DNA of 64,000 nucleotides from Planctomycetota bacterium. Lineage in GTDB: Bacteria; Planctomycetota; Planctomycetia; Pirellulales; UBA1268. Under the pieces are notes generated by a model. The model was given only the letters and a program-made list of their open reading frames with translations. It made no database searches and was not told the origin of the DNA. Shown here piece after piece: positions 1,714-13,118 of the stretch (position 1 is its first letter; each line of letters opens with the position of its first letter). The stretch covers positions 1 through 64,000 of the forward strand of contig JAGWVR010000006.1 in the NCBI GenBank assembly GCA_018970785.1. The letters are read 5' to 3'. Position numbers and translations under genes: made by a program.

Positions 1714-2787
1714 TCAGATCACGTAGTCGTGGTCGACGGGAAATACCCGCGCGGTCCGCGGCGTGATCCGCACGGTTTCCCCCGGCCGCAGGCCGAGATC
1801 GCGCGCCCGATCCGACGGCAGGTCGACCTGCACCGGTTCATCGGCCCCGGCGGGGCGGCAGGCCACGCGGGTGACGGCTCCGCCGGGGGCGATCCGCAGC
1901 ACTTCGGCGCTCAGGCTGGCGCCGTCGGTGGCGGAACCGGAGCGGTGGATGTCGAGCTCGTGGGGGCGGAGGTAGACGCGCGCGGCGCGCGGCCCGGCAA
2001 CGCCGGCGCTCCCCGCGACCGGGATCGGGATCCCGTGCCAGAACGCGCGCCCGTTCTCGATCCGGCCGTGGAACAGGTTGACCGTCCCGAGGAAGTCCAT
2101 CACGAACGGTGTCGCGGGCCGGTCGAAGACCTCGTCCGGAGCCCCCCGTTGCTCGATCCGGCCCTGATTCATCACCACCACCTCGTCGGCCAGCTCGAAC
2201 GCCTCCTCCTGGTCGTGTGTCACGAATACGCTGGTCATCCCGATCTCGTCGTGGAGTCGCCGCAGCCATTGGCGCAGTTCGACCCGCACCTTGGCGTCGA
2301 GGGCCCCGAACGGCTCGTCGAGGAGGAGGATCCGCGGGCGGATCGCCAGCGCCCGCGCCAGCGCCACCCGCTGCCGCTGCCCGCCGGAGAGCTGGGCGGG
2401 GCGCCGGCCACCGAGCCCTTCGAGCCGCACGAGGCGGAGGAGCTCGTCGACGCGCCGCGTCACTTCGGCGCGGGCGACGCGGCGGATCCGCAGCCCGAAG
2501 GCCACGTTCTCGAACACACTCATGTGGCGGAACAGCGCGTAGTGCTGGAACACGAAGCCCACGCCGCGAGCCCGGGCGTGCCGGTCGGTGACGTCGGTGC
2601 CGTCCTCGGTGATCGTGCCGCTGTCGGGCTGCTCGAGACCGGCGATCACACGCAGCAGCGTCGTCTTGCCCGATCCCGATGGCCCGAGCAGGGCGACGAG
2701 CGCCCCGTCGGCGATCTCGAGGGACACGCGGTCGAGGGCCCGGAAGGAGCCGAAGGCCTTGGACACGTCACGGACATGGATGCTCAT
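1714..2787 (-). CDS. cysA: Sulfate/thiosulfate ABC transporter ATP-binding protein CysA
   Basis: This 357-residue ATPase energises the sulfate importer. Walker A ([12 protein letters not shown], near residue 39), Q-loop, ABC signature ([15 protein letters not shown]), Walker B ([12 protein letters not shown]) and H-loop ([10 protein letters not shown]) are all present, and a TOBE-like C-terminal region (from about residue 240) has the [10 protein letters not shown] and YLRPHELDI elements typical of CysA. The ORF track joins it to an out-of-context upstream extension. The real start is the ATG at 2785-2787, which overlaps the cysW stop by 4 nt (ATGA) and so suggests translational coupling. The sulfate assignment is supported by both permeases and the binding protein in the same operon. 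Confidence 0.95.
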
Positions 2788-3680
2788 CGTTGCCCGGCCC
2801 CCTCCGCTGCAGTGCCGTCGGCCGCGCGGGCAGCCTGGCGCTCGCGTGCCTCGGCCTCGACGCGGCGTTCGATCACGTATTTCGCCACCAGCGTCACCAG
2901 CGCCAGCCCGGCGAGGACGCTTGCCACCGCCATCGAGGCCGGCTGGCGGTATTCCTGGAAGAGCTTCTCCACCCGCAGCGGCATCGTGTCGGTGACCCCG
3001 GCGATGTGGCCACTGACCACCGAGACGGCGCCGAATTCCCCCAGTGCCCGGGCGTTGGCCAGGACGACGCCGTGGAGCAACGCCCAGCGGATGTTGGGGA
3101 GCGTGACCCGGGTGAAGACCTGCCAGCCGTTGGCCCCGAGGCTGACGGCGGCCATCTCTTCCTCGGGGCCGATCGACTCCATCACCGGAAGCACCTCGCG
3201 CACCACCAGCGGCAGGGTGACGAACGTCGTCGCCAGCACGAGACCCGGCCAGGAGAAGATCACCTTCCACCCGAGGGCCGCCAGTGTCGGCCCGAGCAGC
3301 CCCTGGCGACCGAAGATCAACACCAGTGCCAGGCCCGCGACCACCGGCGACACGGAGAACGGGAGGTCGAACAGCGCCACCAGCAGCGATCGGCCGGGGA
3401 AGCGGAACCGGGCCACGAGCCACGCCGCGGCGATGCCGAACACCGTGTTGAAGGCCACTGCCACCGGCGCCACCGTCAACGACAGCCAGATCGCGTGGCG
3501 GGTGTCGGCGTCGTGGGCGAGCGTCGCCCACCAGGCGCCGAAGCCGCCAGAAAAAGCCTCGAGGAACACGCTCGCCAGCGGCACGACCACCAACACGCCG
3601 ACGATCCCCCAGGCTGCCGCCACCAACGCCACGTTGCCGGAGCGCGTCGTCGCGGTGATCGGGGAAGCGGGCCTGGACAT
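2784..3680 (-). CDS. cysW: Sulfate ABC transporter permease CysW
   Basis: This inner-membrane permease has 298 residues and about six hydrophobic segments. The EAA loop ([20 protein letters not shown] followed by TLPNI) docks onto CysA, and the stretch [20 protein letters not shown] is typical of CysW. The N-terminal tail is short and the C-terminal tail is charged ([12 protein letters not shown]). It begins 27 nt downstream of the cysT stop and overlaps the cysA start. With CysT it forms the heterodimeric membrane channel for sulfate or thiosulfate. Full length compared with the family. Confidence 0.95.
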
Positions 3681-3707
3681 GGCGACGACCTGGTCGGAGA
3701 ACGGGGG

Positions 3708-4616
3708 TCAATGACCGCTGGCGGCGAGGCGCTGCTGGAGGACGTTGATGACCACCAGCAGCGTCACCGACAGGGCGAGCAGGACGACGGCGATCGCAGT
3801 CGCCTCGGCGTAGGCGAACTCCTCGAGCCGGGCCACGATCAGCACCGGAGCGATCTCGGTTCGGAACGGCATGTTGCCGGAGATGAAGACCACTGAGCCG
3901 TACTCCCCTAGAGCCCGCGCCAGCGACAGGGCGAAGCCGGTGACGACCGCCGGCGCCAGCGCTGGGAGCACGACGCGGAAGAAGGTTTGCCAGCGCGTCG
4001 CGCCGAGGATCCGGGCGGCCTCCTCGGTGTCGCGGTCGAGGCTCTCGATCACCGGCTGCACGACGCGCACCGCGAACGGCAGGCTGACGAACACCAGGAC
4101 CAGCACGATGCCGAGAAACGAATACGCGCCGTGGATGCCGACCGGCACCAGCCACTGGCCGAGCCACCCGTTCTTGACGTACAGCGCCGAGTAGACGAGC
4201 CCTGCCACCGCGGTGGGCAGTGCCAGGGGCACGTCGACCAGCGCGTCGAGGAGCCGCCGGCCCGGGAATTCGATCCGTGCCAGCACCCACGCGACCACCA
4301 AGCCGAGGAACGAGCTGGCGACCGCGGCGATCACGGCGGCGGACAGGGACACCCCGTAGGCGGCGCGGGCCCGCGCGGTCCACGCGGCGGCGACGAATCC
4401 CGCCGGGCCGAGCGCCGCCGCCCGGAAGACGAGCACCGTCAGCGGCAGGATCACCATGGTCGTCACGACCAGCGACGTGACCGCTGCGCTCGGCCAGAAG
4501 CCGGGCAGAACGGCGCTGCGCCGGCGGCGCAGCACTGGGGCCAGAGCAACGGCGTCGGACGGCGGCGCGTGTGGCGGTGGGGCAAGCGCGATCATCGGAC
4601 GGTCTGGGGTGGTCAT
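3708..4616 (-). CDS. cysT: Sulfate ABC transporter permease CysT (CysU)
   Basis: The 302-residue permease partners CysW. It has about six membrane segments, a CysT-type EAA loop ([20 protein letters not shown]) and the motif [21 protein letters not shown]. The track ORF begins far upstream inside the binding-protein gene, but that part is out-of-frame noise. I place the start at ATG 4614-4616, 19 nt after the sbp stop; another in-frame ATG at 4593-4595 is possible. The N-terminal tail before the first membrane helix is about 45 residues and proline-rich, a little longer than usual. Confidence 0.93.
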
Positions 4617-8954: not shown

Positions 8955-9069
8955 CCGAAACCCTGAACCGGGCGACACCAGCGCCCGTCGACAATCCGTT
9001 TTTCCGCGTCGCTGACCGGTCGACTTGGAGGCACGCCCGCGCCGCTCCCCTGGGGAGCGGGAGGTGCCC

Positions 9070-9993
<924 letters not shown>

Positions 9994-10034: not shown

Positions 10035-11495
10035 ATGTCCGACAGCCTCCTCCAGCGCAGCGTGACCACCGCCGTCGCCCGCAACTTGGCCACCACGACC
10101 AAGACGCGGCCGATGATGATGTCGATCACCCCGCGGCACCTGCTCCACCTCCTCCCCTGGGTTCAGGTGGAAGGGGGCGTGTACCGCGTCAACCGCACCA
10201 AGGTCGAGCTCTCCAAGGCGGAGCGGATCGAGATCGTGCCCGCGGCGGCGGGGGGGCTGTCGTTCGCCCACGGCGAGCTGCGCAACGTCCCGCTGTTCTC
10301 CCGGTTTCCCGAGACGCTGCTCGAGCGGATGCAGCAGCGCTTCCGCACCGAGGAGGTGCCGCTGGGCAGCGACCTGCTCATCGAGGGGCAGGACCGGAGC
10401 ACGTTTTTCCTCATCGCCCAGGGGCAGGTGGAGATCCTCTCCAAGGGGGTCCATGGCCGTGACCTCCGCGCCGCCCTGCTCACCGAGGGGGAGTTCTTCG
10501 GCGAAGTCGATCTGGTCAGCGACAAGCCGTCGGGGATCACCGTCCGCACCATCACCCCCTGCGTGCTGCTCACGCTCTCCCGCCAGGACCTCGAAGGGGT
10601 GCTCGACGAGCTCCCCGCGCAGCGCGACTCCTTCCGCCAGGCGGTCGACGAGCACCTCGCCCTGCGCTCGAGCGTCAACCGCTACGGCGAGCGCAACATC
10701 GACCTCGTCTCCGGCTTCGCCGAAAACGTCGAGATCCCCGAGACGTTCGTCGACTACGCCGCCAACCCGCGCGAATACGCCCTGGCCGCGATCCAGACCG
10801 TCGTCCGCGTCCACACCCGCGTCTCCGACCTCTACAACGGGCCCTACGACCAGCTCGAGGAGCAGATCCGCCTCACCATCGAGGGGATCAAGGAGCGTCA
10901 GGAATGGGATCTGGTCAACAACCAGAAGTTCGGGCTGCTCCACTCGGTCGATCCGGCGATGCGCGTCAGCACCCGCTACGGCGCCCCGACCCCCGACGAC
11001 CTCGACGAGCTGCTGTCGCTGGTCTGGAAGAAGCCCGCCTTCTTCCTTGCCCACCCCAAGGCGATCGCCGCCTTCGAGCGCGAGTGCACCCGCCGCGGCG
11101 TGCCGCCGGTGACGACGACGGTCCACGGCTCGCCGGTGATCATGTGGCGCGGCGTGCCGCTGGTCCCGTGCGACAAGCTCGAGGTGAAGAGCCGCAACGG
11201 CTACAGCCAGTCGTCCGGCACGACGAGCATCCTCCTGCTCCGCGTCGGCGAGGACGACCAGGGGGTCGTCGGGCTCCACCAGACGGGGATCCCCGGTGAG
11301 ATCATGCCGAGCCTGTCGGCACGGTTGATGGGGCTCGACAGCCTCGGCGTCGCCTCCTACCTGCTGACCAACTATTTCTCGCTGGCAGTCCTCACCGACG
11401 ACGCCCTCGGCGTGCTCGAGAACGTCGAGGTGGGTTATTACCACGACGACCGGGCGATCGCCCGGGGTGCGCAGGCCGAGGGATCGGGGATCTGA
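10035..11495 (+). CDS. Family 2B encapsulin shell protein with cNMP-binding-like domain
   Basis: This 486-residue protein is recognised as a SrpI-like family 2 encapsulin. The N-terminal arm (residues 1-80, including NLATTTKTRPMMMSITPRHL and LLPWVQVEGGVYRVNR) and the region from about 235 to the end (FVDYAANPREYALAAIQTVV, WDLVNNQKFGLLHSVDP, GLHQTGIPGEIMPSLSARLM, VLENVEVGYYHD) form the HK97-type capsid fold. Between them, residues 84-205 are a cyclic-nucleotide-binding fold (VPLFSRFPETLLERM, EGEFFGEVDLVSDKPSG), which defines subfamily 2B. The phosphate-cassette arginine usually found in PRSATV is absent (PSGITV), so ligand binding is doubtful. Shell proteins self-assemble into a nanocompartment that packages the cysteine desulfurase encoded next. 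Start ATG 10035; the track ORF extends upstream in a wrong frame context. Confidence 0.92.
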   Translation: MSDSLLQRSVTTAVARNLATTTKTRPMMMSITPRHLLHLLPWVQVEGGVYRVNRTKVELSKAERIEIVPAAAGGLSFAHGELRNVPLFSRFPETLLERMQQRFRTEEVPLGSDLLIEGQDRSTFFLIAQGQVEILSKGVHGRDLRAALLTEGEFFGEVDLVSDKPSGITVRTITPCVLLTLSRQDLEGVLDELPAQRDSFRQAVDEHLALRSSVNRYGERNIDLVSGFAENVEIPETFVDYAANPREYALAAIQTVVRVHTRVSDLYNGPYDQLEEQIRLTIEGIKERQEWDLVNNQKFGLLHSVDPAMRVSTRYGAPTPDDLDELLSLVWKKPAFFLAHPKAIAAFERECTRRGVPPVTTTVHGSPVIMWRGVPLVPCDKLEVKSRNGYSQSSGTTSILLLRVGEDDQGVVGLHQTGIPGEIMPSLSARLMGLDSLGVASYLLTNYFSLAVLTDDALGVLENVEVGYYHDDRAIARGAQAEGSGI

Positions 11496-11531: not shown

Positions 11532-13118
11532 ATGAGCATGTCCGACGCCACCGGCCCGACCGGGTTCGGGGCCACGCCCACCGACGAGATCGGCACGGCT
11601 GCCGCGCGGCTGGCACGCGAGGCCCTCGCGACGGCCGTGGCCGGTGCCGCGCCGCCGGTTCACGGAGCGGCCACGCCGCCGGCGCCGACCATTCCCACCC
11701 CGATCGCAGGCCAGCCGGTCGCCCCCGTGCTGCGGCCCGGGCCCGTGACCCCCCGGCCTCCAGGGCACGGCGGCACGACCGACTGGACGGGGCTCCGGCG
11801 CTTCGTCGGCGAGGTCCGCGGCCTCGACCACCGGCGCGCCGCCGAGCTCCCCGTGTGGCGCGGCGCCGGGCCGATCGGCCGTTCGCCGGTGGAGGCGGGG
11901 TTCGGCGCGGCGTTCGACGTCGAACGCGTGCGGCACGATTTCCCGATCCTCGGTGCGCGGATCCACGGTCATCCGCTGGTCTGGCTCGACAACGCCGCCA
12001 CCACCCACAAGCCGCAGGCGGTGATCGACGCCCTCGCGCGGTTCTATGCCACCGACTATTCCAACATCCACCGGGGAGCCCACACGCTCGCCGCCCGGGC
12101 CACCGAGGCCTACGAATCGGCCCGTGCGACCGTGGCGACGTTCCTCGGTGCGGCAACGCCGGACGAGATCCTCTTCGTCCGCGGCTGCACCGAGGGGATC
12201 AATCTCGTCGCCAACGTCCTCGCCCCCCGGCTGCACCCCGGCGACGAGATCGTGGTGATGGAGCTCGAGCACCACGCCAACATCGTCCCCTGGCAGATGG
12301 TCGCCGAGCGCACCGGTGCCGTCCTCCGTGTCGCCCCGATCGACGACCGCGGCGAGGTGATCGTCGAGGCCTACGCGCGGCTCCTCGGCCCGCGGACGCG
12401 GCTGGTGGCGATGTCGCACGCCTCCAACAGCCTTGGCACGATCCTCCCGGTGGAGGTGCTGACGGGGCTGGCGCGGGCCCACGGGGCGCTGGTGCTGGTC
12501 GACGGTGCCCAGAGCGTGTCGCATTTCCCCGTCGACGTCCGCCGGATCGGCTGCGACTTCTACGTCTTCTCAGGCCACAAGATCTTCGGGCCCACCGGCA
12601 TCGGCGCCGTCTACGCCCGCGGCGACCTGCTCGCCACGCTGCCCCCCTGGCAGGGCGGCGGCAACATGATCCGCGACGTCTCCTTCGCGCGGACGACGTA
12701 TGCCGATCCGCCGGCCCGGTTCGAGGCGGGCACGCCGAGCATCGCCGACGCAGTCGGCCTGGCCGCGGCGCTCGACTACGTCACGGGACTGGGGCGCGAG
12801 CGGATCGCCGCCTACGAGCACGGCCTCCTCCACCACGCCACGCGCCGCCTCGAGGCGATCGACAAAGTGCGCCTGGTGGGGACCGCGCGGGACAAGGTCG
12901 GCGTGCTGTCGTTCGTGCTCGACGGCCACGATCCGGTCGCGATCGGGAGGCGGCTCGACCGCGCCGGCATCGCCGTCCGGGCCGGCCACCACTGCGCCCA
13001 GCCTTCGCTGCGTCACTTCGGGCTCGAGGCCACCGTGCGGCCGTCGCTGGCCTTCTACAACACCCCTGCCGAGATCGACCGGCTCGCCGACGTCGTCGCC
13101 GGGATCGCCGCCGGCTGA
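11532..13118 (+). CDS. SufS-type cysteine desulfurase, predicted encapsulin cargo
   Basis: This 528-residue enzyme converts cysteine to alanine plus protein-bound persulfide. Residues 129-528 are a group II (SufS/CsdA-like) desulfurase with WLDNAATTHKPQAVIDAL, RGAHTLAARATEAYE, the PLP lysine in FSGHKIFGPTGIG (Lys350) and the active-site cysteine in RAGHHCAQPSLRHFG (Cys488). Residues 1-128 are an Ala/Pro/Gly-rich disordered extension with two short amphipathic stretches (DEIGTAAARLAREALA and WTGLRRFVGEVRGL). Such N-terminal extensions target desulfurases into family 2 encapsulins, as reported for the Synechococcus SrpI system. The gene begins 36 nt after the shell gene. Its last 64 bp overlap the convergent SLC13 gene. 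Confidence 0.94.
   Translation: MSMSDATGPTGFGATPTDEIGTAAARLAREALATAVAGAAPPVHGAATPPAPTIPTPIAGQPVAPVLRPGPVTPRPPGHGGTTDWTGLRRFVGEVRGLDHRRAAELPVWRGAGPIGRSPVEAGFGAAFDVERVRHDFPILGARIHGHPLVWLDNAATTHKPQAVIDALARFYATDYSNIHRGAHTLAARATEAYESARATVATFLGAATPDEILFVRGCTEGINLVANVLAPRLHPGDEIVVMELEHHANIVPWQMVAERTGAVLRVAPIDDRGEVIVEAYARLLGPRTRLVAMSHASNSLGTILPVEVLTGLARAHGALVLVDGAQSVSHFPVDVRRIGCDFYVFSGHKIFGPTGIGAVYARGDLLATLPPWQGGGNMIRDVSFARTTYADPPARFEAGTPSIADAVGLAAALDYVTGLGRERIAAYEHGLLHHATRRLEAIDKVRLVGTARDKVGVLSFVLDGHDPVAIGRRLDRAGIAVRAGHHCAQPSLRHFGLEATVRPSLAFYNTPAEIDRLADVVAGIAAG

Follow-up and report, generated by a model that had tools for sequence, protein, structure and literature searches.

A desulfurase-linked family 2B encapsulin locus

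The window analysed here, a 64,000-nucleotide stretch of a Planctomycetota genome, carries the gene of a family 2B encapsulin shell protein, flanked by genes for the cysteine synthase CysK and for a SufS-type cysteine desulfurase that is probably the cargo (Table 1). The shell protein scores 587.9 bits against NF041163, the curated family 2B shell model with a cut-off of 400, and its full-length phmmer alignment to the shell protein 9bje (E 1.5e-114) covers residues 7-467. A CNB domain is inserted between the N-arm and the remainder of the HK97 domain, the PF00027 match preceding the PF19307 match. The desulfurase scores above the cut-off of TIGR01979 and reaches 710.8 bits against NF041166, under that model's cut-off of 800.

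Table 1. Positions of the genes, domains and pocket residues discussed in the text; the two sister shells are numbered within their own loci
Feature	Position	Strand	Basis or remark
Cysteine synthase CysK	9025..9993	+	TIGR01139 450 bits; start codon uncertain
Family 2B encapsulin shell protein, 486 aa	10035..11495	+	NF041163, PF19307 + PF00027, phmmer match to 9bje
CNB insert, residues 84-205	10284..10649	+	PF00027 at 108-191, E 4.5e-14
Phosphate-cassette segment FGEVDLVSDKPSGITVRT, residues 155-172	10497..10550	+
Glu157	10503..10505	+	Ribose 2'-OH contact in known CNB domains (PMC6440977)
Asp159	10509..10511	+	PKA RIalpha Ala202 position
Ser166	10530..10532	+	PKA RIalpha Arg209 position
HK97-fold shell domain (SrpI-like), residues 211-467	10665..11435	+	PF19307
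SufS-type cysteine desulfurase, probable cargo	11532..13118	+	NF041166, TIGR01979; low-complexity N-terminus of ~125 residues
Sister shell L152	4238-5602	-
Sister shell L153	890-2254	-

A scan of 84,980 genomes yielded 78 loci with close relatives, on contigs labelled Planctomycetota, Thermodesulfobacteriota, Chlorobiota, Lentisphaerota and Margulisiibacteriota, and from these a clade of 106 shell sequences, the window's included. A desulfurase is encoded in 66 and CysK in 42 of the 78 loci, many of whose contigs are cut short, and a serine acetyltransferase gene adjoins in three examined loci (L044, L061 and L068). With CysK, serine acetyltransferase and desulfurase as neighbours, the setting is therefore one of cysteine synthesis and sulfur handling.

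The name of the CNB-like domain in family 2B shells refers to cyclic nucleotides, yet we know of no ligand for it. The full-length shell was modelled poorly (pLDDT 52), so we used an AlphaFold model of the domain alone (mean pLDDT 86.7), whose best fold match in the PDB is 9bhu, the family 2B shell of S. griseus, followed by the CNB domains of HCN, CRP and SthK. The window protein shares its architecture, an HK97 shell with a CNB domain in the E-loop, with 9bhu, 9bix, 9bje and S. lydicus Enc1/Enc2. Cargoes differ: the S. lydicus shells have a xylulose kinase where the window clade has a desulfurase, and the S. griseus cargo serves 2-methylisoborneol synthesis. In the solved family 2B shells the two-fold pores are partly covered by the CNB domains that sit over them (PMC12407261).

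A cassette that has lost its arginine and gained an acid

HMMER alignments to the PKA and PKG regulatory domains 5kbf and 9ya0 run through the phosphate cassette without a gap and place Ser166 opposite their Arg, with Glu157 retained, which bears out the observation of the earlier note that the window's cassette keeps the Glu of its FGE motif and lacks the canonical Arg. That note had allowed for an Arg shifted to a neighbouring position, an explanation that we reject: the alignments are ungapped and no conserved Arg adjoins Ser166, so the loss stands. The domain thus combines a CNB fold with several departures from canonical cAMP- and cGMP-binding domains. Ser166 replaces the cassette Arg (RIalpha Arg209); the small neutral residue at RIalpha Ala202 has become Asp159, an acid gain that the earlier note did not mention; and the Gly169 of the beta2-beta3 loop, which is co-conserved with the cassette Arg (PMC2246266), is Arg121 in the window (R in 59% and G in 20% of the clade).

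How telling are these changes? The Arg is lost in 16 of 51 ordinary CNB domains from the window's phylum, a score-chosen sample that provides a rough base rate, and an acid occupies the Ala202 position in one of the 51 domains of the same score-chosen sample. Among 30 published family consensuses two have an acid there, and of those FNR alone also lacks the Arg. Loss of the Arg is common by itself and says little, whereas gain of the acid is the rarer and more informative change. FNR-type domains are, to our knowledge, not known as nucleoside sensors; the FNR consensus, acidic and without Arg, therefore indicates that comparable residues can evolve in a family with no known nucleoside ligand.

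Could Lys164 or Arg171 stand in for the Arg, so that the domain would nevertheless answer to cyclic nucleotides? Mutation of the Arg in PKA RIalpha costs about 5- to 10-fold (PMC6440977, PMC2246266), and class III cyclases are present in the window genome and in all six relatives checked; we rejected their presence as a discriminator, all seven genomes having them. However, Lys164 is a variable loop residue (K or R in 85%) and is not conserved, Arg171 lies on the next strand, where canonical domains are often basic too, and an acid at the Ala202 position would clash with the cyclic phosphate (PMC10959531). In addition, another family 2B shell showed no cyclic-nucleotide binding when measured, according to PMC12407261, which cites its ref. 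35 for the result. We therefore regard a cyclic-nucleotide response as the least probable of the explanations weighed here. From the two pocket changes together with the published negative result in another member, we infer that the domain of the window clade very probably does not sense cAMP or cGMP. The earlier note had anticipated this view and proposed a different ligand or a structural role; the missing phosphate contact and an acid at 159 that is unfavourable to a cyclic phosphate speak for its first part, and another ligand is a fair inference, although not a new idea, the same proposal for family 2B domains having been published already (PMC12407261, citing its ref. 35).

Conservation of the altered pocket

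The altered cassette is a stable property of the clade. Ser166 is kept in 106 of 106 shells, residue 159 is acidic in every one of them (D in 79, E in 27, nothing else) and residue 157 is E in 100 and D in 6; Gly156, Glu157, the acid at 159 and Ser166 are accordingly fixed or nearly fixed across several phyla. The same pattern recurs in all 36 shells found among 397 genomes drawn separately from the window's order, a set that partly overlaps with the first. Ser166 has been retained through at least two switches between TCN and AGC codons, and Asp and Glu have been exchanged at position 159 at least six times on the tree, the acid never being lost. Decay as an account of the Arg loss is rejected on the strict conservation of Ser166.

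Does a pocket kept in this way have to bind anything? The domain may bind nothing and serve as a structural cap over the two-fold pore, with Ser166 and Asp/Glu159 held in place by internal hydrogen bonds or interdomain contacts. Other family 2B CNB domains are flexible and do not bind cyclic nucleotides (PMC12407261), and they have eroded pockets, as in 9bje, 9bix, 9bhu and plasmid-borne shells; the PDB sequences of 9bhu, 9bix and 9bje resemble the window in being without the canonical cassette Arg. Moreover, conservation of the window clade's cassette exceeds that of its surroundings only modestly, with a mean identity of 73% in the cassette and 67% in the rest of the domain. Yet the eroded and variable pockets of the solved shells differ from the fixed Glu, acid and Ser of the desulfurase-linked clade, whose near-invariance extends over several phyla, and both the D/E exchanges and the Ser codon switches preserve chemistry. 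A domain that binds nothing is a quite possible explanation, if one that we place below even odds.

A different kind of ligand is suggested by position 167, which is Asp or Glu in 84% of clade members. Together with the acid at 159 this would make the pocket negative, and an acidic pocket without Arg might accept a positively charged or zwitterionic compound from the enclosed pathway (cysteine, O-acetylserine or the sulfonium of SAM, for instance) and so exert feedback on the shell; the neighbouring genes for CysK, serine acetyltransferase and desulfurase fit such a role. The window itself, however, has Gly at 167, and the literature searched offers no CNB precedent for ligands of this kind, which leaves the idea improbable.

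Two further residues, His207 (H/Y) and Tyr217 (Y/H/F), are conserved in the clade at distances that would roughly suit an aromatic purine cap and lid, if they face the pocket. Nearly all members have His207 with Tyr217 (10653-10655 and 10683-10685 in the window), and the Chlorobiaceae shells have Tyr207 with His217; the two ring-bearing side chains, which could cap the pocket, may have exchanged places as a pair.

A canonical sister clade and the history of the pocket

Adjoining the window clade is a sister clade of two Planctomycetota shells, from a planctomycete class other than the window's, that bear a canonical cassette with its Arg (FGEIALIKQGPRTA in L086/L152 and FGEIALLQDCPRKA in L087/L153). 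They have the same shell architecture as the window protein, to which they are 51-54% identical, but read FGEIAL..GPRTA or CPRKA, with Ala and Arg at the 159 and 166 sites. In L152 the desulfurase gene lies directly downstream of the shell gene; in L153, at a contig edge, the start of a similar disordered cargo alone is visible. Whether loss of the Arg is general in family 2B, a point that the earlier note had left to an alignment, is thereby answered in the negative, since these shells keep the full canonical cassette. Among the more remote family 2B members, taken from plasmid records and the PDB, the Arg is missing in varied other ways. The cassettes of L152 and L153 are at odds with published accounts, which describe family 2B pockets as diverged, and judged by their residues these two may be true cyclic-nucleotide-binding shells; the literature searched does not mention a family 2B shell whose canonical cassette is intact.

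To keep the trait out of the data from which its history is read, the tree was built from the HK97 domain alone, with the CNB domain left out. It unites the window-type shells with support of 100/100 and places the two canonical shells beside them at 97/95. On this tree two changes suffice for the acid at 159, and two for the Ser/Arg state. Ten sites between residues 88 and 200 are fixed in the clade and different in both sisters, and four of the ten (159, 166, 169 and 171) lie in the cassette. The window-type pocket has a single origin: canonical Arg and Ala are the consensus in most CNB families (PMC2246266), and the simplest reading is therefore one conversion on the branch leading to the window clade, at its base, after which the new state remained fixed.

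Likeness to the nucleoside-binding domains of trypanosomatid PKA

A precedent for this combination of residues is found in trypanosomatid PKA: its CNB domains have nM affinity for purine nucleosides, which replace cAMP as the ligand. There Ala202/326 is replaced by Glu and Arg209/333 by V, T, A or N; Glu312/436 binds the ribose O3' and O5' and Glu310 the O2', and removal of the acid lowers the potency of inosine 1556-fold (PMC6440977, PMC10959531). The trypanosomatid structures (6FTF, 6HYI and 6FLO) and the window clade alike keep the Glu, have an acid at +2 and have a short neutral or polar residue at +9, so that Glu157, Asp159 and Ser166 together form the pattern of a ribose binding cassette (Glu, acid at +2, short neutral residue at +9). 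Window residues numbered 16-107 in the query match residues 176-267 of the 6ftf chain, and in a second run 6-88 match 181-263, the stretches being equal in length; those of a relative (L059) against 6ftf and 6flo are likewise equal on both sides. Going by stretch lengths, within which compensating gaps are possible, Glu157, Asp159 and Ser166 correspond to Tc 434/436/443 and Tb 433/435/442, a numbering that assumes chain starts of 200 and 199, as implied by the construct names and the chain lengths (304 and 301).

The two systems also differ in ways that bear on any shared ligand. Trypanosomatid PKA is a eukaryotic kinase subunit with tandem domains, a purine-stacking Tyr and an alphaD lid, and is not an orthologue of the window shell. 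Where Tc Lys294 and Tyr300 make base contacts the window has Gly141 and Ala147, and no counterpart of the alphaD lid was identified in the window domain. The third switch position (Tb Val319/443) holds Gly167 instead of Val in the window and mostly Asp or Glu in its relatives, and the acid, Glu in the trypanosomatid proteins, is mostly the shorter Asp in the window clade. The literature searched contains no mention of the acid/Ser pocket of the desulfurase-linked clade or of its likeness to a ribose binding cassette.

A putative ribosyl-binding domain on the shell

Taken as a whole, the best explanation, to which we give a probability of roughly 0.38, is that a single conversion at the base of the desulfurase-linked family 2B clade turned a cyclic-nucleotide cassette into a ribose-binding-like one, leaving the pocket blind to cAMP and cGMP and able to bind an uncharged ribosyl compound, perhaps a purine nucleoside or a related molecule. 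In such a pocket the 2'-OH of the ribose would be bound by Glu157, and its 3'- and 5'-OH by Asp/Glu159, in the space vacated by the missing Arg. By analogy with trypanosomatid PKA, an uncharged ribosyl compound is our best single guess for the ligand, yet only a moderately likely one, since the two pockets have neither base contacts nor a lid in common, Asp has a shorter side chain than Glu, and FNR sets the precedent described above. We consider a purely structural role, with no ligand, almost as probable. If, as in homologous shells, the CNB domain lies above the two-fold pore, binding of the ribosyl ligand could alter the pore cover and with it the traffic of cysteine or sulfur to the enclosed desulfurase; such gating is a weak suggestion, drawn from those homologues. 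More speculatively still, the shell may carry on its outside, above the main pores, many copies of a convergent sensor of a nucleoside, or of a nucleoside-like sulfur metabolite, that ties a purine or SAM-cycle signal to the desulfurase, the canonical sister shells being regulated by cyclic nucleotides instead, a scenario that we consider doubtful.

New in this work are a pocket signature conserved within one clade and specific to it, a sister clade with the canonical cassette, and a candidate class of ligand. The window clade offers a ligand hypothesis that is specific and cheap to test, naming nucleosides and their relatives, and the sister clade supplies a matching positive control for cyclic nucleotides. 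Should a nucleoside-type ligand prove right, this would be, as far as is known, the first encapsulin to respond to a ligand, and trypanosomatids would no longer be the only source of nucleoside-type CNB domains.

Tandem shell genes and cargo N-termini

The window's shell gene is single, no second one having been found in its genome (69% complete), and at least two tandem shell reading frames occur in 37 of the 78 related loci (for example L014, L016, L055 and L061). In locus L067 the leading member of a tandem pair of shell genes (2419-3933) reads as two adjacent frames, 2419-3138 and 3142-3933, owing either to an early stop codon or to a misassembly. A similar short helical sequence, roughly IAxIAxRLYNExP in general and IANELYADTP in the sister clade, opens the disordered N-terminus of the desulfurases (window 11532-11600, L014, L016, L044, L055, L061, L068, L075, L152 and L153) and is a candidate loading tag. 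The motif GPTGFG, which resembles the terpene cyclase tag, is prominent only in the window's own cargo; as a clade-wide loading tag comparable to the GPTGLGT of terpene cyclases it was rejected, since the motif search matched only two of the 73 desulfurase frames that were scored, and those loosely. The sister desulfurase at L152:1784-4213 (-) has a Gly/Pro-rich, repetitive N-terminal region of unusual length, roughly 400 residues, ahead of its catalytic domain.
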